A stretch of DNA of 61,707 nt from an uncultured Opitutia bacterium (lineage in GTDB: Bacteria; Verrucomicrobiota; Verrucomicrobiia; Opitutales; Opitutaceae), in contig CAIUOU010000082.1 in the NCBI GenBank assembly GCA_903900845.1, forward strand, positions 1 to 61,707, given 5' to 3'. Of this stretch, positions 44,664 through 56,798 are shown piece after piece. The stretch's first letter is position 1. Every line of letters begins with the position of its first letter. Under the pieces are notes generated by a model. That model had not been told where the DNA came from. It saw only the letters and a program-made list of their open reading frames with translations, and searched no databases. The position numbers and the translations under genes were made by a program.

Positions 44664-45035
44664 ATGCGCGACCAACCCTACGCCTTCCTCGCCTTGTTCG
44701 CGCTGGTCGCGGTGGCGATCCCGCTGGCGCTCCTCGGCGTCGCGCGGCTGTGGTTCCACGTTTTCCAACCCGCCAAGCCCGGCGCCGAGAAGAATGCCGT
44801 CTACGAATGCGGCGTGAAGCCGACGGGCGACTCATGGATCCAGTTCAAGGCCCACTATTACCTGTACGGGATCCTCTTCCTGGTTTTCGACGTGGAAGTA
44901 TTGTTCCTGCTGCCGTTCGCGGTGGTGTTCAGCGGACTGCCGGCCGGCGCGCTGTTCGCGATGCTGGTGTTCATCCTGCTGCTCGCCGAGGGGCTCGTCT
45001 GGGCCTGGGCCCGCGGCCACCTGGAGTGGAAATGA
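44664..45035 (+). CDS. nuoA: NADH-quinone oxidoreductase subunit A
   Basis: NuoA is a three-TM subunit of complex I at the junction of the membrane and peripheral arms. The 123-residue product has the conserved loop [19 protein letters not shown] and [14 protein letters not shown]. It opens a 12-gene operon with gaps of at most 10 bases or 4-base overlaps. Confidence 0.95.
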
Positions 45036-45036
45036 C

Positions 45037-45687
45037 ATGAGCGAGGCCCCCCCCGCCCCCGCCGCGCCCGAGATCACCGCCGCGGAGCGCGACGAGCTGC
45101 GCCGCCACGGCATCCTGCTTACCAGCCTCGAGGAGCTCTACAACTGGGGCCGCAGCAATTCCGTCTGGCCGCTGCAATTCGGCCTCGCTTGCTGCGCGAT
45201 CGAGATGATCGCCGCGTCGATGGCCCGCTTCGACATCGCGCGCTTCGGCTCCGAGGTTTTCCGCCCTTCGCCGCGGCAGGCCGATCTCCTGATCGTCTCC
45301 GGGACCGTCACCAAGAAGATGGCCCCGCAGGTCGTGCGCCTCTGGAACCAGATGCCGGAGCCCAAGTACTGCATCGCGATGGGCGCCTGCGCCATCTCCG
45401 GTGGGCCTTTCAAACAGGGCTACAACGTCCTCAAGGGCATCGACCGTTTCATCCCGGTGGATGTCTACATCCCCGGCTGCCCGCCGCGGCCCGAGGCTCT
45501 GCTCCACGGGTTGATGCAGCTGCAGGAACAGATCCGAGCGCAGAAGATCTCCGGTCCCGAAGCCCCGCGCCACCTGCGGCCCGAGGCTTCCGGGGAATTC
45601 CCGGTGCCGGAATTCGGCGGGAGCGACCTGGTGCCCCCGCGGAATCCGGACCTCTGGGAGCCGCCGACCATCGTCCGCGCCGAGTGA
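45037..45687 (+). CDS. nuoB: NADH-quinone oxidoreductase subunit B
   Basis: NuoB holds the terminal N2 iron-sulfur cluster that passes electrons to quinone. The 216-residue product shows the four ligands in [18 protein letters not shown] and [11 protein letters not shown] tail of about 40 residues extends past the core. The gene starts one base after the nuoA stop. Confidence 0.95.
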
Positions 45688-45690
45688 CGC

Positions 45691-46365
45691 ATGGAAACCC
45701 CGGGGCAGATCCGCGACCGCATTCTGGCCCGGTTCTCCGGGGCCGAGGTGACCGTCGTCACAAATCCCGGACCGGCCGCCCAGCATTCGCTCCTCGTCGG
45801 GGCCGCGCACGCGACCGCCATCGCGACGTTTCTGCGCGACGATCCCGTGCTGCAGCTCGACACCTGCTCCAACGTCACCGGCGTCGACTGGCCCGGCCGC
45901 GAGATCGTGGAGACCGTCCGCCAGCCGCTCGCGCCCGAGGAAGACGCCGATCCGGCCGCCCCGCCGGGGGTCATCGAGGAGAAGATCAAGCGCCTGGTGC
46001 CCGGTTCTTTGGAGGTGGTTTATCACTTGTACTCCGTGGCCCTGAAGCACGGCCCCGTGATCTTGAGGCTGCGCACCGCCGATCGCGCCGCCAACGTCAC
46101 CCTGCCCTCCCTCACGCCGGTGTGGCGCGCGTGCGAGTTCCAGGAACGGGAGGTCTTCGATCTCTACGGCGTTAAATTCACGGGCCATCCGGACCTCCGG
46201 CGCATCCTCATGTGGGACGAGTTCCAGCATCACCCGATGCGGAAGGACTACGTTGAGCCCGACGACTACGAGTGGGAACCCACGCCCCACGACGCGGTGC
46301 TGACCAAAGCCCGCCGCCATTACCCGGCCCCGCCCGCGGCGCCGGAGGAGGAATCGACCCCATGA
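45691..46365 (+). CDS. nuoC: NADH-quinone oxidoreductase subunit C
   Basis: NuoC is the small hydrophilic subunit that contacts NuoD near the quinone site. The 224-residue product contains the conserved [19 protein letters not shown] and the [18 protein letters not shown] segment. nuoC and nuoD are separate genes here, with a 4-base overlap (ATGA), unlike the fused nuoCD of E. coli. Confidence 0.95.
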
Positions 46366-47537
46366 GCGCCGCCGGTGAACTCGCGGGGCTCTCCGCCGCG
46401 CCGGGCACGACGGTTCGCGCGGTGAACGATCCGTTCCACGGCGACCTGCTCGAGGTCTCGATGGGGCCGCACCATCCCTCGACCCACGGGGTGTTCCGCA
46501 TGATGGTCACGCTCGACGGCGAGACCGTCGTGAAGCTGAAGCCGGTCTTCGGGTACCTGCACCGCAACCACGAGAAGCTCGGCGAGAACACCACCTACCT
46601 CGGGTCGATGCCGTACACCGACCGGCTCGATTACCTGAACTCGATGACGAACAACTGGGCCTACGCCCTCGCGGTCGAGAAGCTTTCCGGCCAGCCGGTT
46701 CCGGAGCGCGCCGAGTACCTCCGCATCATCCTCGCTGAGCTCACCCGCCTGCTCAACCACACCTGCCTCGCGGGATTTCTACTCCAGGACACCGGCTGCT
46801 CGGGCACACCGCTGATGTACGCCTTCCGCGAGCGCGAGCACATCCTCGACCTCTTCGAGGCGCTCAGCGGCTCCCGGATGATGTGCAATTACCAACGCTT
46901 CGGCGGCTGCCGCGTCGACCCCACCCCGGGGTGGCTCGCGGCAGCCGCGCGCCTCGTCGACGGCTACGGCCGCTTTCTCGACGAGTATGAGGCGCTTATC
47001 ACCGGCAACGAGATCCTGATGGCCCGCACCCAGGGCGTCGGCGTGTTGCAACCCGATCTCGCGGTGAACGCCGGTGCCACCGGCCCGATGCTGCGCGCCT
47101 GCGGTGTCGACTACGACCTCCGCAAGGTCGACGGTTACGGTTTCTATCCGCGCTTCGAATTCCGCGTGCCGCTCGGCGACCACGGCGACACCTACGATCG
47201 CTACATGATCCGGGTCCTCGAGATGCGGGAATCGATCCGCATCCTGCAGCAGGCGCTGCGCGACCTGCCCGCGGGACCGATCATCGATGCGAAGGCCAAG
47301 AACCGCGGCCTGCGTCCGAAGGCGGGCGAGGCCTACGGCCGCATCGAGGGCCCGAAAGGCGAGATCGGTTTCTACCTCATCAGCGACGGCGGCCCCAACC
47401 CGTACCGCTACCGCGTGCGCCCGCCCTCGTTCATCAACCTCACCGTGCTCGAGGACATGTGCCTCGGCCAGACCGTAGCCGACGCCGTCGTCATCCTCGG
47501 CAGCGTCGACATCGTGCTCGGAGAAGTCGACCGCTGA
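46362..47537 (+). CDS. nuoD: NADH-quinone oxidoreductase subunit D
   Basis: NuoD (49-kDa) forms most of the quinone-binding chamber. The 391-residue product has [13 protein letters not shown] near the N terminus, [12 protein letters not shown] and a C-terminal [11 protein letters not shown] end. The region between residues 340 and 391 ([27 protein letters not shown]) is also typical. ATG 46362 was chosen for its overlap with the nuoC stop. Confidence 0.95.
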
Positions 47538-47547
47538 CCCTTTTCCC

Positions 47548-48246
47548 ATGCTCGGCTCCGGACTTCTCCAAGGCCTCGCGGTCACCGCGAAAAACCTCGC
47601 CGGCAGCTTTCACGACCCGGCGCGCTACGTCACGACCGAGTATCCCGAGCAGCGCACCAAGCTGCCCGAGAACTACCGCAACTTCCCGTTCCTCGTCCAC
47701 GACGACCCCGCCGACCCCAACGGTACGCTGCGCTGCGTGGCCTGCCAGATCTGCGAGAAGGAGTGCCCGCCGCAGTGCATCTACATCGTGATGGAGCGCG
47801 ACGAGAAGGGTAAGGCGCTCAGGCGACCGAAGGTCTTCGACCTCGATATCTCCGTCTGCATCAGCTGCCAGATCTGCGTCGAGGTCTGCCCGTTCGATGC
47901 GATCAAGATGGACCAGGAGTACGAGATAGCGACGCGGAACCGCTTCGGCGGATTGCTGCTGCACCGGGAAGACCTCTCGAAGTCGAACGCATACTACCAC
48001 CAGATCCACCCGACGGAGGCAGCGGGCGTCGACGCCGCACTCGCGGAACAGAAGGCGAAGCAGGCCGCAGCGAAGGCCGCCAAGGCCGCGCCGGCGCCGA
48101 AAGCCGCCGCCACCACCGCAACTCCAGCAACCGCCGCGACTGCCCAGGACTCCGCAATATCCCCTGCGCCCGCGGCTCCTCCACCCGCCTCCGCTCCGGA
48201 TACTCCGGCCAATCCGGCTCCGGCAAACCCGCCGCCCGACGCATGA
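47548..48246 (+). CDS. nuoI: NADH-quinone oxidoreductase subunit I with Ala/Pro-rich tail
   Basis: NuoI carries two 4Fe-4S clusters (N6a/N6b) that bridge to NuoB. The 232-residue product has CVACQICEKECPP (about residues 63-73) and CISCQICVEVCPFDA. After about residue 160 it continues in a low-complexity Ala/Pro/Lys tail of about 70 residues that most NuoI proteins lack. The gene is placed before nuoH, not after it as in E. coli. Without NuoG nearby, this subunit could be the electron entry point. Confidence 0.92.
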   Translation: MLGSGLLQGLAVTAKNLAGSFHDPARYVTTEYPEQRTKLPENYRNFPFLVHDDPADPNGTLRCVACQICEKECPPQCIYIVMERDEKGKALRRPKVFDLDISVCISCQICVEVCPFDAIKMDQEYEIATRNRFGGLLLHREDLSKSNAYYHQIHPTEAAGVDAALAEQKAKQAAAKAAKAAPAPKAAATTATPATAATAQDSAISPAPAAPPPASAPDTPANPAPANPPPDA

Positions 48247-49469
48247 GCGCCCACCCCGCGAACGCGCTGCCGTTGCTCGAGCGATTGCCCGTCGCGCTGC
48301 GGGACGCGTGCACCAGCTGGTTGCCGGAGTCGTGGCGCTGGCTGGCCAACAGCCTCCTTTCGATCGTCGCGATCTTCGTGGTGTTCGCGACGCTCTTTGC
48401 GCTGCTCACGCTGGCTGAGCGCAAAATCCTCGGTCGCGTGCAGAACCGCCCCGGCCCCAACCGCGCGCCGCTCCCGTTTCTCGGCATCCGGACCTACGGC
48501 CTCGCGCAACCGCTGGCCGACGGCATCAAGATGCTCACGAAGGAGGACATCGTCCCGCGCGGCGCCGACCGCGTGCTGCACTTCCTCGCCCCGGTGGCGC
48601 TGCTCGCGTTTTCCATCCTGACCTTCGCGGTGATCCCTTACGGCCGCGCGCTGTTGCCGGTGGAACTCGACGCGGCGGTGCTGTACTTCTTCGCCGCCGG
48701 TGCGGCGACCGAGCTCGCCATCTTCATGGCGGGTTGGGCGAGCCGGAACAAATACTCGCTCCTCGCCGCGATGCGCGCGCTCGCGCAACTGATCAGCTAC
48801 GAGCTGCCGCTGCTGCTGTCCATCGTGCCGGTGGTGCTGGTCGCCGGCTCGCTCTCCACGAGCGAGATCGTCGAGCAACAGGGAACCTGGCTCTTTGGCG
48901 TCTTCCCGCAGTGGCACGTGTTCACGCCGTGGGGATTCGCAGGGTTCCTCATCTTTTTCGTCGCCGCGCTGGCCGAGTCCAACCGCTCGCCGTTCGATCT
49001 CCCCGAGGCGGAAAGCGAGCTGATCGCCGGCCACCTCACCGAGTACTCCGGTTTCAAGTACGCCCTGTTCTTCATGGCCGAATACTTCGGGATGTGCGCG
49101 CTGAGCGGCATGGGCGTGACGCTTTTCCTCGGCGGCTGGCAGGCACCGATTCCCGCCCTCGCGTTCATCCCGTCCTACGGCTGGTTCGCGGCCAAGCTCC
49201 TCGCGCTCCTGTTCGTGTTCATGTGGATCCGCGCGACGTTCCCGCGGCTGCGCATCGACCAACTCACGCGCCTCGCCTGGAAATTCCTCGTGCCGCTCGC
49301 GCTCGTGAACCTGTTCACGGCCGCGTTCTGGGTTCTCTCCTCGGGCTGGGCCGGCCCGCTCGCCTTCGCCCGCTGGCTCGTCGCCGGCACGCTGGTCCTC
49401 GGTCCATTCCTCGTGCTCGGCCGGCGGCTCAGCGCCGGCCTCGGACCACGCACGTACCGCTACGCCTGA
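48243..49469 (+). CDS. nuoH: NADH-quinone oxidoreductase subunit H
   Basis: NuoH forms the inner end of the membrane arm and part of the quinone entry. The 408-residue multi-TM product shows AERKILGRVQNRPGPNR, the acidic loop AESNRSPFDLPEAESEL and ATFPRLRIDQL. The start overlaps the nuoI stop (ATGA). Confidence 0.95.
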   Translation: MSAHPANALPLLERLPVALRDACTSWLPESWRWLANSLLSIVAIFVVFATLFALLTLAERKILGRVQNRPGPNRAPLPFLGIRTYGLAQPLADGIKMLTKEDIVPRGADRVLHFLAPVALLAFSILTFAVIPYGRALLPVELDAAVLYFFAAGAATELAIFMAGWASRNKYSLLAAMRALAQLISYELPLLLSIVPVVLVAGSLSTSEIVEQQGTWLFGVFPQWHVFTPWGFAGFLIFFVAALAESNRSPFDLPEAESELIAGHLTEYSGFKYALFFMAEYFGMCALSGMGVTLFLGGWQAPIPALAFIPSYGWFAAKLLALLFVFMWIRATFPRLRIDQLTRLAWKFLVPLALVNLFTAAFWVLSSGWAGPLAFARWLVAGTLVLGPFLVLGRRLSAGLGPRTYRYA

Positions 49470-49475
49470 ACCCCT

Positions 49476-49991
49476 GTGAGCCTCGCCTTCCTCCTCATTG
49501 CGTTCCTCACCGTCGCCACCGCGGCGGTCGCGATGGCGTTGCGCAACCTGGTCCGCAGCGCGCTTTTGCTGGGCGCCAGCTGGGCCGGTGTCGCGGCGTT
49601 CTACCTCTGGGCCGGAGCCGAGTTCCTGGCGTTCGCCCAGGTGCTCGTCTACGTCGGCGCCATCTCGATGGTGGTGCTCTTCGCCGTCCTGCTCACGCGC
49701 CCGTCGCGGGATGAGGGCGCGGTTTCACCGGCCTCCGCCGGCCGACTCCTGCCCGCGCTCATCGCCGGCGGCTCCGTTCTCGGCGTGCTGGTCGGAGCGA
49801 TCGTCGGCTCGCCATTGCGGACGGCCGCCAAGCCGCCGTTGGCGTTCACGGTGCGGGAACTCGGACTTCAATTGATGGGACCGCACGCGGCCTCCCTCGT
49901 CGTCGTCGGCGCGCTGCTCACCGTCGCCCTGCTGGGCGCGGTCGTCATCGCCGCGCCGGGTCGGCCGGGTGACCGGGAGGACCCACGATGA
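49476..49991 (+). CDS. nuoJ: NADH-quinone oxidoreductase subunit J
   Basis: NuoJ is a five-TM subunit of the inner membrane arm. The 171-residue product shows LLGASWAGVAAFYLWAGAEF, VLVYVGAISMVVLFAVLLT and a C-terminal TM. GTG 49476 is the start, six bases after the nuoH stop. Confidence 0.93.
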   Translation: MSLAFLLIAFLTVATAAVAMALRNLVRSALLLGASWAGVAAFYLWAGAEFLAFAQVLVYVGAISMVVLFAVLLTRPSRDEGAVSPASAGRLLPALIAGGSVLGVLVGAIVGSPLRTAAKPPLAFTVRELGLQLMGPHAASLVVVGALLTVALLGAVVIAAPGRPGDREDPR

Positions 49992-50305
49992 ACCTTTCCC
50001 CGCTCCATCTGTGCCTGCTGTTTTCCAGCGCCCTCTTCTGCGTGGGGCTGATCGGCGCGCTATCCCGCGGCAACTCGATCCTGGTGCTGCTCGGCGTCGA
50101 GCTGATGCTCAATGCGGGCAACATCAACCTGATCGCCTTCTGGCGTTTCGGCCCGGCCCCCGCCGAGGGCACCGGCGTCCTGTTTGTCTTATTCGCGATC
50201 GCGATCGCCGCCGCTGAGGCGGCGGTCGGCCTTGCACTGGTGATCGCCGTCCACCGGCACCAGCGGAACATCCGGCTGCAGGAGGCGAACCATCTGCGCG
50301 GCTGA
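49988..50305 (+). CDS. nuoK: NADH-quinone oxidoreductase subunit K
   Basis: NuoK has three TM helices with two membrane glutamates that take part in proton transfer. The 105-residue product contains the first in VLLGVELMLNAGNINL and the second in AAAEAAVGLALVIAV. It overlaps the nuoJ stop by four bases. Confidence 0.95.
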   Translation: MNLSPLHLCLLFSSALFCVGLIGALSRGNSILVLLGVELMLNAGNINLIAFWRFGPAPAEGTGVLFVLFAIAIAAAEAAVGLALVIAVHRHQRNIRLQEANHLRG

Positions 50306-50309
50306 AGCC

Positions 50310-52325
50310 ATGCGCGTACCCGCCCATCTTCTCTGGCTGATCCCGGCGCTGCCGCTGCTCGCGGCCGGCATCGGCGCCTTCGCCCCCCGCACCGCTCGGC
50401 GCACGACCGCCGGCTCCGCGATCGCGGCGATGGCGATCTCGTTCCTGCTTTCGTGCGGCGCGCTCGTCACCGCGCTCCGCGACCCTGCCGTCCACGCGGT
50501 CCACAACTTCGCGTGGTTCGACCTCGGGCACGGGGCGTTGCGCCTCGGCTGGCTGCTGGACCCGTTGACTGCGCTGATGGGCGTGATGGTGACCCTCGTC
50601 GGGCTGCTGATCTTTATCTTCAGCGCCGGCTACATGGCGGAGGACGCCAACTTCAAACAGTTCTTCTGCTTCCTCAGTCTGTTCGGCGCGGCGATGCTCG
50701 GCCTCCTCGTCGCCAACAGCCTGCTCCTGCTCTTCATCTGCTGGGAGCTGGTCGGTCTCGCCTCCTACCTGCTGATCGGCTTCTGGTTCCACCAGCCCTC
50801 GGCGGCCGCCGCGGCAAAAAAGGCCTTCATCACCACGCGCATCGGCGACCTCGGGCTGCTGGTCGGTCTGCTCTGGCTCTACGATGCCACCGGCTCGCTG
50901 CTGTTCTTCGACGGCGGCGAGGGTGTGCTCGAAGCGGGCCCGCTCGCGGCACTCTCCGCCCAAACCACAGTCGGCGGTCTCGCCGTGTCCACCGCGATCG
51001 GGCTGCTGATCTTCTGCGGCGCCGCGGGCAAGTCGGGCCAGTTCCCGCTGCACGTGTGGCTGCCCGACGCGATGGAGGGCCCCACCCCGGTTTCGGCGCT
51101 CATCCATGCCGCGACGATGGTCGCGGCCGGCGTCTTCCTCATCGCGCGCGTCTATCCGCTGCTGGCGGCGGATCTCACGCTGCCTTCGGCCCCGCTCCAC
51201 GCGTTGAGCGTCGTCGCCACGATCGGCGCGATCACCGCCCTCCTCGGCGCGGTGATCGCCGTCGGCCAGAACGATATCAAACGCATCCTGGCATTCTCCA
51301 CGGTCTCGCAGCTCGGCTACATGATGCTCGCGCTCGGCGTCGGCTCGTGGGTCACCGCGATCTTCCATCTGCTCACGCACGCCTTCTTCAAGGCCCTGCT
51401 CTTCCTCGGCGCCGGTTCGGTCATCCACGCCGCGCACCACGAGCAGGACATCCGCCGGCTCGGCGGTTTGCGCGCGCCGTTGCGGGTGACCTTCGCGACG
51501 TTCGCCGTCGGCATGATGGCGCTGGCCGGCGTGCCGTTCCTGTTCTCCGGCTTCTGGAGCAAGGAGGCCATCCTGCACGCGGCGCACGGCTGGAGCGTGT
51601 CCCAGCTACCGTTCGCCGCGGGGCTCATCGCGGTCGTGCTCACAGCCTTCTACACGACCCGCCTCGTCGCGGAGGTTTTTCTCGGGACTCCGCGCGGTGA
51701 AGGTGCCGCCCGCGCGCAAGAGAGCCCCGCAGTGATGACCGTGCCTCTGGTGCTGCTCGCCGTTTGCGCGGCATTGCTAGGTTTCATCGGCACACCGTGG
51801 TGGCCCTGGCTGCAGCGCACGCTGGACCCGACCTTCGCGACGGAACCCGGCGGCTTTGGCCTGATGGCGGTTTCCATCGTCCTTGTCGCAACGGGACTGG
51901 GCGCCGGCTGGGCACTCTACGCGCGAATTCCCCGTTCCAGCGCCGGTGAAGCGGACCCGGTGGAGCGCCGCGCCCCGCGACTTTTCGCCGCGCTGGCCGA
52001 CCGGCTCGGATTTGACGAGCTCTACGCTGCGACTGTCGGGCGCCTCAACGCATGGACCGCCGCTTTCGCTGACGCCCTCGACCGCCGGGTCTGGGATGGA
52101 ACTGTGCGCCTGCTGGCGGGACTCGGCCTGTTCACCGGGCAGGTCACCCGCGAGACCGATGAGAACCTGATCAACGGCGGGTTCGACGCGGCAAGCGGTG
52201 GCCTGCGCTCCGGCGGTCGGGCCTACTCGCGCGGGCAGAGCGGCGATACCCACAGCTACCTTCGCTACATCGCGATCGGCTTCACCCTGATCGCGCTCGC
52301 CGTGCTGCTGGGAGTACGCCGATGA
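50310..52325 (+). CDS. nuoL: NADH-quinone oxidoreductase subunit L
   Basis: NuoL is the distal antiporter-like subunit with the long lateral helix. The 671-residue product is about 60 residues longer than E. coli NuoL. It has the TM5 glutamate in FICWELVGLASYLLIG, the TM7 lysine in GAAGKSGQFPLHVWLPDAMEGPTPVSALIHA, and DIKRILAFSTVSQLGYMMLA. The extra length lies after about residue 480, where the lateral helix is expected, and fits a membrane arm lengthened by an extra NuoM. Confidence 0.95.
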   Translation: MRVPAHLLWLIPALPLLAAGIGAFAPRTARRTTAGSAIAAMAISFLLSCGALVTALRDPAVHAVHNFAWFDLGHGALRLGWLLDPLTALMGVMVTLVGLLIFIFSAGYMAEDANFKQFFCFLSLFGAAMLGLLVANSLLLLFICWELVGLASYLLIGFWFHQPSAAAAAKKAFITTRIGDLGLLVGLLWLYDATGSLLFFDGGEGVLEAGPLAALSAQTTVGGLAVSTAIGLLIFCGAAGKSGQFPLHVWLPDAMEGPTPVSALIHAATMVAAGVFLIARVYPLLAADLTLPSAPLHALSVVATIGAITALLGAVIAVGQNDIKRILAFSTVSQLGYMMLALGVGSWVTAIFHLLTHAFFKALLFLGAGSVIHAAHHEQDIRRLGGLRAPLRVTFATFAVGMMALAGVPFLFSGFWSKEAILHAAHGWSVSQLPFAAGLIAVVLTAFYTTRLVAEVFLGTPRGEGAARAQESPAVMTVPLVLLAVCAALLGFIGTPWWPWLQRTLDPTFATEPGGFGLMAVSIVLVATGLGAGWALYARIPRSSAGEADPVERRAPRLFAALADRLGFDELYAATVGRLNAWTAAFADALDRRVWDGTVRLLAGLGLFTGQVTRETDENLINGGFDAASGGLRSGGRAYSRGQSGDTHSYLRYIAIGFTLIALAVLLGVRR

Positions 52326-53857
52326 GCCGCCTGCCCCTGCTTTCCCTGCTGGTGTTCCTGCCCTGGTTCGGCGCGGCGGCCCTCGCGCTGCTTCCCCGGC
52401 TGTCGGAAGCCGCGCATCGCCGCTTCGCACTCGCGGCCAGCCTCTCAACGCTCGCGGTGGCTCTGGCGCTGCTGCGCGGATTCGATCCTGCACGCACGGC
52501 GCCGCAATTCGTGGAAAAGCACGCGTGGATCGGTGCACTCAACGTCAATTATCACCTCGGACTCGACGGCCTGAGCCTGATTCTCGTACTCCTGACGGGA
52601 CTGGTGGCGCCCGCGGCACTGGGCGCGAGCTTCCGCTCCGGAGAATTCCGCGGATTCGCGGCCTTTTTTCTTACGCTGCAGGGTGCCGCGCTCGGGGTGT
52701 TCCTGGCGCTCGATTTTTTCCACTGGTTCATCTTCTGGGAGCTCAGCCTCATCCCCGCCTACTTCCTGATCAAAATCTGGGGCGGACCGGGCGCGACCCG
52801 CGCGGCCTACCAGTTTGTCATCTACACCATCGGCGGCAGCGCCTTCCTGCTGCTCGGCTTCGCCTCGCTCTTCAGCGCGGCGGGCACCTTCGATTTCCAG
52901 CAGCTCGCGCAACTCGGCGCGGACGGCTCCCTCGCCCGCAAGCTTGGCGGGGACGGCTCGTGGTGGCTCCAGGCGGTCTTCCTCGGCGTGCTCCTCGGGC
53001 TCGCGGTGAAGGTTCCGCTCTGGCCATTCCACACGTGGCTGCCCCCGGCCTACGCGGAGGCCCCGACCGGCGCATCGATGTTCCTGACCGCCGTGATGTC
53101 CAAGATGGGCGTCTACGGTTTCCTGCGTATCCTCTGGCCGATCTTCCCGCGGGAACTGCAGGCGGCCGCTCCCTGGCTGATGGTCCTCGCGCTCGGTGGC
53201 GTCTTGCTCGGCGCATGGGGGGCGATGCGTCAGACGGACCTGAAGCGGATGGTGGCCTACTCGTCGGTCAACCACCTCAGCTACTGCCTGCTCGCTCTGT
53301 TTGCAGTCGCGCACGCGAGCGGAAAATCCGGCGCGTTCAGCGAGGCCGCCACGGCGGCGCTGAGCGGCACGCTCCTGCAGATGTTCAATCACGGACTCTC
53401 CGCCGCGGCGCTCTTCTTCTGCGTGGGCGTCCTCGAGGAACGCTCCGGCAACCGGCGTGGAGTCGATGACTTCGGCGGCGTCCGTACCGTCGCGCCCTTA
53501 TTCGCCGCGCTCACCGGGGTGGCGATGTTCTCCTCGCTCGGCCTGCCGGGTCTGAACGGCTTCGTCGGCGAATTTCTCATCTTCCGCGGCGTTTTCGGGC
53601 TGGCCCCGTGGGCGGCCGCGATCGCGGCACTTGGGCTGCTGGCGACGGCGATTTTCCTGCTGACCTTCTGGCAGCGGGTGTTCCATGGGCCGGTGGTGGG
53701 CGCCACTCCGGGCTTCAAGGACCTGACGCTCGCAGAGGCCGTGCCGCTGCTACCCGCGACGGCGCTGATGGTAATCCTGGGCGTTTACCCGCAGCTCCTC
53801 GCGGGGTTGATCAACCCGCTCGTCACGGCCTGGGCCGGTCAGCTCACCCCGCCATGA
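52322..53857 (+). CDS. nuoM: NADH-quinone oxidoreductase subunit M, copy 1
   Basis: NuoM is an antiporter-like proton-pumping subunit. The 511-residue product has the TM5 glutamate in FIFWELSLIPAYFLI, the TM7 lysine in LAVKVPLWPFHTWLP, a second lysine in VMSKMGVYGFLRI and DLKRMVAYSSVNHLSY. It overlaps nuoL by four bases and the second nuoM by four bases. Confidence 0.95.
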   Translation: MSRLPLLSLLVFLPWFGAAALALLPRLSEAAHRRFALAASLSTLAVALALLRGFDPARTAPQFVEKHAWIGALNVNYHLGLDGLSLILVLLTGLVAPAALGASFRSGEFRGFAAFFLTLQGAALGVFLALDFFHWFIFWELSLIPAYFLIKIWGGPGATRAAYQFVIYTIGGSAFLLLGFASLFSAAGTFDFQQLAQLGADGSLARKLGGDGSWWLQAVFLGVLLGLAVKVPLWPFHTWLPPAYAEAPTGASMFLTAVMSKMGVYGFLRILWPIFPRELQAAAPWLMVLALGGVLLGAWGAMRQTDLKRMVAYSSVNHLSYCLLALFAVAHASGKSGAFSEAATAALSGTLLQMFNHGLSAAALFFCVGVLEERSGNRRGVDDFGGVRTVAPLFAALTGVAMFSSLGLPGLNGFVGEFLIFRGVFGLAPWAAAIAALGLLATAIFLLTFWQRVFHGPVVGATPGFKDLTLAEAVPLLPATALMVILGVYPQLLAGLINPLVTAWAGQLTPP

Positions 53858-55359
53858 ACGCGTTGCCGTGGACCATCCTCTTCTCGTTCGCGGGCGCGAT
53901 CCTCGCGTTGGACGCGGGAACGCGCTCCGCGGCGCTCGCCCGGCGCGTAGGTCTGGTGGCTACGCTCGCCGGTCTGGCCGCGGCTTTGCTCGCCGCGACG
54001 CGCTTCACGCCGGGGCCCGGGATGCAGACGATTCTCGACCTGCCGTGGATCCCGCAGCTGGGCGCACGATGTCATCTCGCCGCCGACGGCATCAGCCTGA
54101 CGCTCGTGTTGCTGACCGGCATCGCGGCGACGGCGGGCGTGCTCTTCTCGTGGAACATCGAGGAACGGACGGGCGAATTTTTCGCGCTGTACCTGACCCT
54201 GATCGGCGGCGTGTACGGCGTGTTCCTGAGCGCGGACGCGTTCCTACTCTTCGTCTTCTACGAGATCGCGATCGTCCCGAAGTATTTCCTGATCGCGATC
54301 TGGGGCTCCACGAACCGCGAGTACGGAGCGATGAAGCTGGTGCTCTACTCGTTCGCCGGCAGCGCGCTTGTGCTCGGCGGCATGCTGTGGGTCTTCGCGG
54401 CCGCGGGCGGCAAGAGCTTCGCGCTGGCCGATCTGGCGGCGGCCGCGGCTCGTTTCCCGAAAAATGACCAACTGGCGATGTTCGGGCTGCTGTTCCTTGG
54501 ATTCGCGGTGCTGGCGGGTCTTTTCCCCTTCCACACGTGGGCGCCGACCGGCCACGTGGCCGCGCCCACCGCCGCCTCGATGCTGCTCGCCGGGGTGGTG
54601 ATGAAACTCGGGGCTTACGGCTGCCTGCGCGTCGCGATGCCGCTCTTCCCCGAGGCGCTGGCGTGGTGGCAACCGGCCATCGCGTGGCTCGCTATCGCCG
54701 GAATCCTGTACGCGGGACTGGTCGCGCTGGTACAGGACGACTTCAAGTTCGTCATCGGCTACTCGAGCGTGAGCCACATGGGCTTCGTGCTCCTCGGCCT
54801 GGCCGCCGCCACCCCGCAGGCGGTCGGCGGCGCCGTGCTGCAGATGTTCTCCCACGGTGTGATCGCCGGCCTCCTCTTCGCCGTGGCGGGCCGGATCGTC
54901 TACGACCGGACGCACACCCGCCGTCTCGAAGCACTGCAGGCCATGCCCCTGCACCGCCTGCTGCCCTTCGGCGCCGTGGTCTTCGTCCTCGCCGGCATGG
55001 CGTCGATGGGCATGCCCGGCTTCAGCGGTTTCCCCGCCGAGCTCGCGATCCTGATCGGCACGTGGAAAGCATCCCCGATCTGGGCGCTATTCGCCGCGGC
55101 TGGCATTTTGGTGGCGGCCGCCTTCACCCTGCGGGTCGTGCAAATCTCGTTCTTCGGTCGCACCACGGCCGCCGCGGACTCGGCTCCGGGCGATGGTCTT
55201 CCGTTTGCACCGGTTACCTGGCCCGAAAAGGCCGGCGCCGTGCTGCTGCTCGCGTCGACACTGCTGATCGGACTTCGGCCGGACCTGCTGCTGGACTGGA
55301 TCAACCCCGCGCTGCAATCCCCGCTGATGCAGGCCGCGCTGAAGGGCGGTCAGCCGTGA
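53854..55359 (+). CDS. nuoM: NADH-quinone oxidoreductase subunit M, copy 2
   Basis: This second 501-residue NuoM is clearly homologous to copy 1 but diverged. It keeps the TM5 glutamate (FVFYEIAIVPKYFLI) and the later lysine (VVMKLGAYGCLRV). The TM7 lysine is replaced by Leu220 (FAVLAGLFPFHTW aligns with LAVKVPLWPFHTW of copy 1). The gene overlaps both neighbours by four bases. ATG 53854 was chosen inside the stop of copy 1; the frame is open farther upstream only because it overlaps that gene. Confidence 0.93.
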   Translation: MNALPWTILFSFAGAILALDAGTRSAALARRVGLVATLAGLAAALLAATRFTPGPGMQTILDLPWIPQLGARCHLAADGISLTLVLLTGIAATAGVLFSWNIEERTGEFFALYLTLIGGVYGVFLSADAFLLFVFYEIAIVPKYFLIAIWGSTNREYGAMKLVLYSFAGSALVLGGMLWVFAAAGGKSFALADLAAAAARFPKNDQLAMFGLLFLGFAVLAGLFPFHTWAPTGHVAAPTAASMLLAGVVMKLGAYGCLRVAMPLFPEALAWWQPAIAWLAIAGILYAGLVALVQDDFKFVIGYSSVSHMGFVLLGLAAATPQAVGGAVLQMFSHGVIAGLLFAVAGRIVYDRTHTRRLEALQAMPLHRLLPFGAVVFVLAGMASMGMPGFSGFPAELAILIGTWKASPIWALFAAAGILVAAAFTLRVVQISFFGRTTAAADSAPGDGLPFAPVTWPEKAGAVLLLASTLLIGLRPDLLLDWINPALQSPLMQAALKGGQP

Positions 55360-56798
55360 ACGGCGTTTCCTACGTCGAGCTGTGGCGAGCACTCCTGCCG
55401 GAGGGCTGCCTCACGCTCGGCGCCCTGCTCGTGCTCGCGATCGACCTCGCGGCCCCGGCCAGCCGGCCGGCCGCCGCGCGACGGGGCGCCGCGACCGCCT
55501 TGGCGCTCATGGCGCTCGCCGCCTCCGCGTGGGCCACGGTGCGCGCCGGAACGGACGGAGCGGCGTTCGGAGGGGTTTTCGCCCTCGACCGCCTGACGCT
55601 GGTCACCCGCCTAGGAGTGATCGGACTCGCGCTACTGACGGTGGCGCTGGCCGGAAATCTCTCCCGCCTCGCGAATGCGGCCGAATATCTCGCGCTCATC
55701 CTTTTCGCCACCGCGGGCTTCACCCTGATGGCGGCCTCGAACCAGCTCCTGCTCGCTTTTCTGGCGCTCGAGCTCGCCAGCCTCTCGCTCTACGTGCTGG
55801 CCGGCTTTGACAAAACGCGGCCGGAGTCCGCCGAGGCGGGACTGAAGTATTTCCTCTTCGGCGGGGTTTCCGCCGCCTTCATGCTTTTCGGCTTCAGCCT
55901 GCTTTACGGCCTGACCGGTTCGATCGCCTTCCCCGAAATCGCACGCCAACTGGCCGCGCAACCGCCGTCCGCGCTGCTCGTGGTCGCGCTCGTGATGGTC
56001 CTGGTCGCGTTCGGCTTCAAGGCGGCCGCCGCTCCGTTTCACCTCTGGGCGCCCGACGTCTACGAAGGCGCGCCGGTCGGATCCGCCGCGCTGATCGCCT
56101 CAGCCTCAAAGCTCGCCGGCGTCGCTTTTTTCGCCCGTTTGCTCTGGGCGGGAATCGGCGCGCCGGTCGCGGCCACGTGGCTGCCGGTGCTCGCGATCCT
56201 CGCTGCGGCCTCGCTGGTGCTCGGCAACGTGGCCGCCCTCGCGCAGTCCAACGTCCGCCGCCTGCTCGCCTATTCCGCGATCTCCCACGCCGGCGCGCTC
56301 CTGCTCGGGGTGATGGTGGCCGGACGATCCCCAGGCTCGGTCGTCTACTACGCCGTCACCTACGGACTGGCGACCGTAGGCGCGTTTGGCGTCATCGCCG
56401 CCCTCGAGGCGGCGGGTCCTTCCCAGCGAATCGAGGATCTCGCGGGGCTCCACCGACGGTCACCGTTCCTCGCGGGCTGCCTCGCGATCTACATCCTGTC
56501 CCTAGCCGGCATTCCGCCGTTGGCCGGATTCCTTGGAAAATTCGCGGTCTTTGCCGACGCCCTGCGCGCCGGCGGACTCACAGGCCCGACCGGCTGGCTT
56601 GCCTTTCTGGCGATCGCGATGGGCGCCGTGGGGCTGTACTATTACCTGCTGATCCTGAAACAGGCCTTCGTCGCGGCGCCGAAGAATGGCGCCGCGAAAA
56701 TCTTCATCCCGCCCGCCGCCCGCCTGGCACTCGGTGTCGCCGCGGTCGCGATCATCGTGTTCGGGGTCGCGCCCGGACTGATCCTAGGCGCCTTCTGA
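55356..56798 (+). CDS. nuoN: NADH-quinone oxidoreductase subunit N
   Basis: NuoN is the antiporter-like subunit next to NuoK. The 480-residue product has the TM5 glutamate in LAFLALELASLSLYVLAG, the TM7 lysine in VAFGFKAAAAPFHLWAPDVYEGAP, and NVRRLLAYSAISHAG. GTG 55356 overlaps the stop of the second nuoM (GTGA). The 3' end overlaps the convergent trmO by 15 bases. It closes the operon. Confidence 0.94.
   Translation: MNGVSYVELWRALLPEGCLTLGALLVLAIDLAAPASRPAAARRGAATALALMALAASAWATVRAGTDGAAFGGVFALDRLTLVTRLGVIGLALLTVALAGNLSRLANAAEYLALILFATAGFTLMAASNQLLLAFLALELASLSLYVLAGFDKTRPESAEAGLKYFLFGGVSAAFMLFGFSLLYGLTGSIAFPEIARQLAAQPPSALLVVALVMVLVAFGFKAAAAPFHLWAPDVYEGAPVGSAALIASASKLAGVAFFARLLWAGIGAPVAATWLPVLAILAAASLVLGNVAALAQSNVRRLLAYSAISHAGALLLGVMVAGRSPGSVVYYAVTYGLATVGAFGVIAALEAAGPSQRIEDLAGLHRRSPFLAGCLAIYILSLAGIPPLAGFLGKFAVFADALRAGGLTGPTGWLAFLAIAMGAVGLYYYLLILKQAFVAAPKNGAAKIFIPPAARLALGVAAVAIIVFGVAPGLILGAF

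Follow-up and report, generated by a model that had tools for sequence, protein, structure and literature searches.

The window examined here is a stretch of 61,707 nucleotides on contig CAIUOU010000082.1 (C82) of an uncultured Opitutia bacterium of the Opitutaceae, a family that includes cultured members; the genome amounts to 4.40 Mb in 205 contigs. On the plus strand, at 44664-56798, lies an operon for respiratory complex I comprising 12 genes, all open, in the order nuoA-B-C-D-I-H-J-K-L-M1-M2-N. The genes were named via NCBIfam profiles and are spaced by −4 to +10 bases, which bore out the order and tight packing given in the original prediction, made from the DNA letters alone. As it had also stated, the operon is without the genes of the NADH-oxidising module: none of nuoE, nuoF and nuoG was found within 44664-56798. 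With two NuoM genes and a NuoL whose lateral helix carries about 26 inserted residues, the operon is, judged from its sequence, of the published kind termed 2M complex I, reportedly described by Chadwick and others in 2018 and found in Nitrospira and Chloroflexota. We consider it probable that the encoded enzyme is a 2M complex I that lacks an NADH module, is fed by ferredoxin, has four antiporter-like subunits and runs forward beside an NADH-type complex I.

The operon begins with nuoA (44664-45035; also PF00507) and nuoB (45037-45687), which carries the N2-cluster cysteine motifs CC..E, GAC and CPPRPE. The gene nuoC (45691-46365) is not fused to nuoD (46362-47537); the ATG of nuoD overlaps nuoC, and the mechanical open reading frame begins at a GTG at 46272. 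NuoD has the HPSTHG and DRLDY quinone-site motifs and not the RxCGxC motif of [NiFe] enzymes. The gene nuoI (47548-48246), recognised by both NCBIfam and Pfam, encodes two CxxCxxCxxxCP motifs and an Ala/Pro-rich C-terminal tail, and its product is likely the site where electrons enter. The membrane arm is encoded by nuoH (48243-49469), nuoJ (49476-49991, GTG start), nuoK (49988-50305), nuoL (50310-52325), nuoM1 (52322-53857), nuoM2 (53854-55359) and nuoN (55356-56798, GTG start). The four antiporter-like subunits (L, M, M, N) named in the original prediction were thus supported at the level of genes.

A second complex I operon was found on contig C107 of the same genome, with nuoB-C-D-E-F-G-H-I-J-K-L-M-N, each named by NCBIfam. 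A single nuoA on contig C71 (30699-30998; NCBIfam, PF00507) perhaps supplies the subunit that this complex lacks. The antiporter family PF00361 had seven matches in the genome, four in the window and three on C107, and NuoF (PF01512) was matched on C107 only. From its gene content, the cell has both a standard NADH-type complex I and the 2M enzyme as a specialised second one. The idea of an organism without NADH module is thereby lost. The original prediction would have been given up had nuoE, nuoF and nuoG turned up elsewhere together with a second complete operon, or had NuoL shown no insertion. The first was half borne out, the three genes being present in the second complex I operon; the insertion was nonetheless there. 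Because they lie inside a complex I operon of their own, the three genes do not refute a specialised second enzyme, and their absence from the rest of a genome is no strict mark of 11-subunit complexes.

The NuoL insertion and the extra NuoM

NuoL has 671 residues against 613 in Escherichia coli, so the earlier figure of about 60 additional residues was correct. Length by itself was rejected as evidence, as the EFG-type NuoL of C107, which is without the insertion, has 651 residues if read from an upstream start and 626 if a later start is taken. An alignment of 83 NuoL proteins, the check proposed with the original prediction, located the insertion in the lateral (HL) helix at about residues 595-621 (52092-52172; the ends are alignment-dependent). 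The stretch containing it measured 34-36 residues in 60 of the 83 rows, this NuoL among them, and 9-10 residues in 22 rows, including those of E. coli and C107; one row was truncated. All 43 loci with both M types had the insertion, as did this operon; E. coli, C107 and the 12 loci whose NuoL is of the EFG type had none. The two M genes were in tandem in 42 of the 43; the remaining locus (L079) instead has two separate L-M-N operons, with the insertion in an L-M-N operon.

NCBIfam, the alignment and a structure model all went into typing NuoL as 2M. In a single-chain AlphaFold model, the final helix of this NuoL ran over residues 565-669 (mean predicted local distance difference test score 85), with low confidence near the C-terminus; the C107 protein gave final helices at 537-597 and 603-625 (mean score 79), again with a low-confidence C-terminus. 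About 26 helical residues span some 39 angstrom, roughly the width of one subunit. Both in sequence and in fold, the best solved-structure match of NuoL was a chain of cyanobacterial NDH-1, followed by mycobacterial complex I. The insertion has the length published for Manganitrophaceae, and one of similar length is given for Nitrospira (PMC9040806).

Two further loci had unusual NuoL genes. In L022 (1017-3047), a NuoL of 2M type was followed on the locus by no match to NuoM or NuoN, and a gene for pyruvate:ferredoxin oxidoreductase (PFOR) lay about 5 kb downstream. In L047 (9634-13444), the operon was of 2M type up to a point within NuoL and of EFG type after it. A natural swap giving a 2M front with EFG-type M and N was set aside; the locus is a probable assembly chimera, because the NuoL type changes sharply near residue 250.

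By NCBIfam and alignment, NuoM1 was canonical, with Glu on transmembrane helix (TM) 5, Lys on TM7, Lys on TM8 and Glu on TM12. NuoM2, typed additionally by a tree, belonged to a lineage without the TM7 lysine. This lysine (E. coli K234) was present in 61 of 119 aligned NuoM rows, among them all M1-typed rows and that of this operon's M1, and all 71 NuoN rows had Lys at the site. Of the 58 rows without it, 44 were M2-type proteins (from 42 tandem loci, this operon and L068, a locus with one M), and the other 14 were the sole NuoM proteins of Verrucomicrobial NADH-type operons, C107 included (L009:3518-5035). The M2-type proteins had Leu at the site in 43 cases and Thr in one; in this operon it is Leu220 (codon 54511-54513). 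All 43 tandem-M operons, this one included, had an M2 without the lysine. Four proteins with M2 as best BLAST match retained it (L071, L079, L087 and L093); none of them came from an operon with tandem M.

The remainder of the canonical set was largely kept in the 44 M2-type proteins, with TM5 Glu and TM12 Glu in all and TM8 Lys in 42. Two further residues marked the lysine-less proteins. Thirty-eight of the 58 had a lysine on TM5, six residues after the Glu (Lys143), and the other 20 had a histidine on TM8 (His245); none had both and none had neither. This operon's M2 has Lys143, six residues past Glu137 (codon 54280-54282). Lys143 occurred in none of the 61 NuoM rows with the TM7 lysine, and His245 occurred alongside the TM7 lysine in three Bacillota rows, out of 66 rows with lysine in the tree set (five of them NuoN). 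Position 245 lines up with the TM8 histidine of NuoL, as judged by eye from the motif. The 14 Verrucomicrobial NADH-type proteins had the histidine and an extra Lys, both on TM8.

In a NuoM tree built without the three residue columns, by a quick method without bootstrap and with long branches flagged by the program, the 58 lysine-less rows formed one clade (Shimodaira-Hasegawa-like approximate likelihood ratio support 96), and M1 fell elsewhere. M1 and M2 occupied different starred clades, which led to the rejection of a recent tandem duplication as their origin. The TM7 lysine changed once on the tree, Lys143 three times and His245 five times. A sign test of Lys143 against His245 had only two independent pairs and so cannot reach significance; the claim of mutual exclusion rests on the 38 and 20 of 58 without overlap and on the three and five changes. 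The pattern extended to the Nitrospira phylum (that of Nitrospiraceae record L091), from which five loci of the published clade-3 layout were read out of seven genomes with tandem matches. All five had the NuoL insertion, a first M with the lysine, and a second M with isoleucine at the TM7 site and the TM8 histidine.

These data suggest, tentatively and with nearly as much chance of being right as wrong, that the extra NuoM of 2M complexes did not arise as a copied pump but represents an ancient NuoM lineage of its own whose ion pair has been rewired, and in which the role of the TM7 lysine is taken by the TM5 lysine or the TM8 histidine, the two being mutually exclusive. If so, the Glu-Lys pair would not be a universal gate of antiporter-like subunits, and nature would have tried out two replacements in four phyla or more, one of which sits in the only NuoM of an NADH-type complex I. 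That M2 is without the TM7 lysine was not found described in the literature searched, which did not extend to the 2018 2M paper of Chadwick.

Mutation of the TM7 lysine abolishes the function of E. coli NuoM (PMC3046159), the Glu-Lys pair is essential in Paracoccus (PMC9802314), and proton transfer has been proposed to be gated by opening of the ion pair (PMC11496545). The original suggestion of more ions pumped per electron is accordingly doubtful, since the extra NuoM is without this lysine. M2 might instead be a structural spacer or coupling relay, with the ion yield per electron pair not exceeding that of ordinary complex I, an arrangement compatible with a ferredoxin donor. Absence of an essential lysine from all 43 tandem-M operons and all five Nitrospira-phylum loci would fit such a role. 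Against it, the TM5 Glu and TM12 Glu were invariant and the TM8 Lys nearly so, the sole NuoM of the Verrucomicrobial NADH-type enzyme is also lysine-less and presumably works, and the alternation of Lys143 and His245 without exception in 58 proteins looks like replacement rather than decay. On balance a spacer is rather unlikely, though of the alternatives to the preferred reading it survives best.

Electron entry and the ferredoxin link

Motifs were scored in the proteins of the both-M loci and of this operon; those missing from a locus or below 120 bits were left out, so that low-scoring or cut genes are excluded from the counts. Both 4Fe-4S motifs of NuoI were found in 29 of 29 proteins and the N2 cysteines of NuoB in 26 of 26. 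NuoD had quinone-site motifs of the HPSTHG and DRLDY types in 29 of 31 and the [NiFe] RxCGxC motif in 0 of 31. We take these motifs to have their usual functional meaning. A membrane-bound [NiFe] hydrogenase of the Ech/Hyc type was rejected, NuoD being without RxCGxC and retaining the quinone-site motifs. With the motifs of NuoI, NuoB and NuoD kept in this way, the enzyme is most naturally read as one that reduces quinone with electrons from a low-potential Fe-S donor. A NuoI with a long C-terminal extension, possibly an extra Fe-S domain (PF04060, 22.5 bits against a cut-off of 23), was seen at L045 (6662-8008).

Co-occurrence with 2-oxoacid:ferredoxin oxidoreductases (OFOR) was examined in 61 genomes of the family, with POR_N as the mark of these enzymes; any POR_N match was counted, so PFOR is not separated. 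M2 was scored as present where a protein of the window type reached at least 57% identity, as in 28 genomes. POR_N exceeded the cut-off in 27 of the 28 genomes with NuoM2 and in 19 of the 33 without (Fisher's test, P = 6 × 10−4). A second EFG-less complex I, the green type, occurred in 20 of the 61 genomes, four of which also had M2; five of the green matches (G012, G032, G033, G048 and G057) were only 50-51% identical, which makes their operon type less sure. When 2M and green operons were pooled, POR_N was found in 43 of 44 genomes with an EFG-less complex and in 3 of 17 without (P = 4 × 10−10). The counts were 35/36 and 3/15 for genomes at least 90% complete, and 34/34 and 3/15 with one genome per genus. 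The link is not one with complex I in general, as NuoF occurred in 60 of the 61 genomes.

Neighbourhood pointed in part the same way. A PFOR gene lay near the operon in 6 of 43 both-M loci, three in Opitutae (L017, L018, L019), two in Acidobacteriaceae (L023, L035) and one in Spartobacteria (L048). The 37 other loci gave one such case, L022, whose NuoL bears the insertion. Among the 43 and the 37 loci, 30 and 23 respectively had a flank of at least 4 kb on one side. M2 and POR_N were both present in 27 family genomes, and in five of these a POR_N gene, OFOR or PFOR, lay within 10 kb of M2 (G006, G015, G017, G021 and G043). At three loci (L097-L099) a green operon with two MrpD-like genes, M and N and without E/F/G adjoined the 2M operon, the two being separated by genes for OFOR alpha and beta. 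The present genome has a PFOR on C123 (TIGR02176, 1662 bits) and OFOR alpha and beta genes on C101. Taken together, the donor of the 2M enzyme is probably ferredoxin; the original prediction of a donor other than NADH thus gains indirect support from neighbourhood and co-occurrence, with ferredoxin favoured. Separately, OFOR genes were seen with a green operon in a genome without M2 (L102), and at L015 the 2M operon was followed by the first genes of another nuo operon (B, C, D and H), at which point the locus ends.

A ferredoxin-linked enzyme might also run in reverse, with proton motive force driving electrons from quinol to ferredoxin, as the original prediction allowed. This is a published hypothesis for the 2M complex I of Nitrospira (PMC6606698, PMC7784846), in which 2-oxoacid:ferredoxin enzymes work reductively (PMC6606698), and such an uphill step would suit four antiporter-like subunits. 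With organic substrates, however, the PFOR and OFOR of this genome can supply reduced ferredoxin, and of the ferredoxin enzymes it is PFOR that was seen most often near the operon. The presence of PFOR favours forward running; the reverse direction, possible in itself, is not favoured in such a genome, and we rate it improbable, though no carbon-fixation pathway was looked for. Least probable is that NuoE, NuoF and NuoG of the C107 complex also dock on the 2M complex so that both oxidise NADH: the three are present in the cell, and NuoF is near-universal in the family, but they are encoded inside a separate operon with its own B, C, D, H, I, J, K, L, M and N, and the 2M operon is statistically tied to ferredoxin enzymes.

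Proposed mechanism and its weighing

In the forward-running, ferredoxin-fed enzyme that we favour, the 2-oxoacid:ferredoxin oxidoreductases of the cell would make reduced ferredoxin, the presumed electron donor. Electrons would pass through the Fe-S clusters of NuoI to NuoB and reduce quinone at the NuoB/NuoD/NuoH site. The energy would then travel through a membrane arm in which the four antiporter-like subunits are assembled in the predicted order N-M2-M1-L and held together by a NuoL lateral helix longer by about one subunit's width. By textbook potentials, menaquinone reduction yields almost twice as much energy with ferredoxin as with NADH, and the larger ferredoxin-to-quinone drop would pay for the longer arm. 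The enzyme would work beside the NADH-type complex I, probably in the direction of quinone reduction and ion pumping.

Several observations weigh against this reading. The absence of the TM7 lysine from M2 speaks against counting it simply as a pump for a fifth proton. The insertion occurred with a single NuoM on the locus in at least nine cases (L049, L055, L058, L063, L071, L072, L078, L085 and L093) and so is by itself no proof of four pumps; a comparable insertion with a single NuoM is published for Manganitrophaceae (PMC9040806). No ferredoxin enzyme lies beside the operon in this genome, and no PFOR was found in the flanks of 37 of the 43 both-M loci, 13 of the 43 having less than 4 kb of flank on either side. 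The pooling of 2M with green operons was decided after the first table had been seen, and the P-values are too small, since the 61 genomes are related. One 2M genome (G055) had no POR over the cut-off, as was also the case for its operon-less congener G007, and three genomes (G004, G019, G035) had POR and neither EFG-less operon. Of the two congeneric pairs differing in the operon, G015/G059 went with POR and G007/G055 did not.

A split 2M complex was seen in genome G064, with I-H-J-K-L-M1 at one locus (L041) and M2-N at another (L123), the two lying 1.6 Mb apart on one chromosome; this M2 has Leu at the TM7 site. By analogy, the second M of loci with the insertion and a single NuoM may sit elsewhere in the genome.

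How energy passes along the membrane arm of complex I, and whether every antiporter-like subunit pumps, are still debated (PMC9802314, PMC11496545). Natural enzymes with a fourth subunit and a lysine-less NuoM offer a direct test of pumping, and the link of EFG-less enzymes to 2-oxoacid:ferredoxin oxidoreductases names a concrete donor to assay.

Distribution and comparison with known systems

The same gene order was found in many Verrucomicrobia and Acidobacteriaceae, so the layout is not due to chance; E, F or G was seen at none of the loci sharing it. The closest NuoL relatives were from Opitutae/Opitutaceae, followed by other Verrucomicrobia and Acidobacteriaceae. The operon is flanked by genes for a radical SAM protein (PF08497), an M19 peptidase, TrmO, DUF1501 and PSCyt1 proteins. 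Three metagenome-assembled genome records titled Akkermansia muciniphila or Klebsiella pneumoniae (L026, L030, L032) carried this operon type; these titles look wrong, as the NuoM tree placed L030 and L032 with each other among Verrucomicrobia and Acidobacteria.

An EFG-less 2M layout that keeps nuoH, and a ferredoxin link in this group, were likewise not found in that literature search, which left out the 2018 paper. The operon otherwise resembles 2M complex I in its second NuoM beside the first, in the length of the NuoL insertion and in the presence of a canonical complex I in the same cell. Chloroflexota 2M operons have been published (PMC7117926, PMC3150298), and the Chloroflexota loci of this analysis fitted the 2M features of gene order, insertion and M2. 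The five Nitrospira-phylum loci read share the insertion and an M2 without the TM7 lysine, but this M2 has Lys143 on TM5 where theirs has His245 on TM8. Nitrospira clade 3 is described as being without nuoH, nuoE and nuoF and having an enlarged NuoG (PMC6606698), whereas this operon keeps nuoH, is without E, F and G, and has nuoI between nuoD and nuoH.

Like the 11-subunit complex I of the Desulfitobacterium type and cyanobacterial NDH-1, this enzyme is without NuoE, NuoF and NuoG, and its donor is not fixed by the operon, ferredoxin being likely; the top solved match of NuoL is an NDH-1 chain. The Desulfitobacterium operon is nuoABCDHIJKLMN with one NuoM (PMC11238625), in contrast to the two NuoM and the NuoL insertion found here. 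The rhizobial green complex I also has four antiporter-like subunits, two of them MrpD-like and replacing NuoL (PMC9040806); rhizobia had been named in the original prediction as an example of the extra NuoM, which was wrong. A similar EFG-less operon adjoins the 2M operon in some genomes of the family, and MrpD-like proteins had no match in the present genome at E = 1 × 10−60. Green complex I has neither a second NuoM nor a NuoL, and the operon described here has two NuoM and one NuoL.

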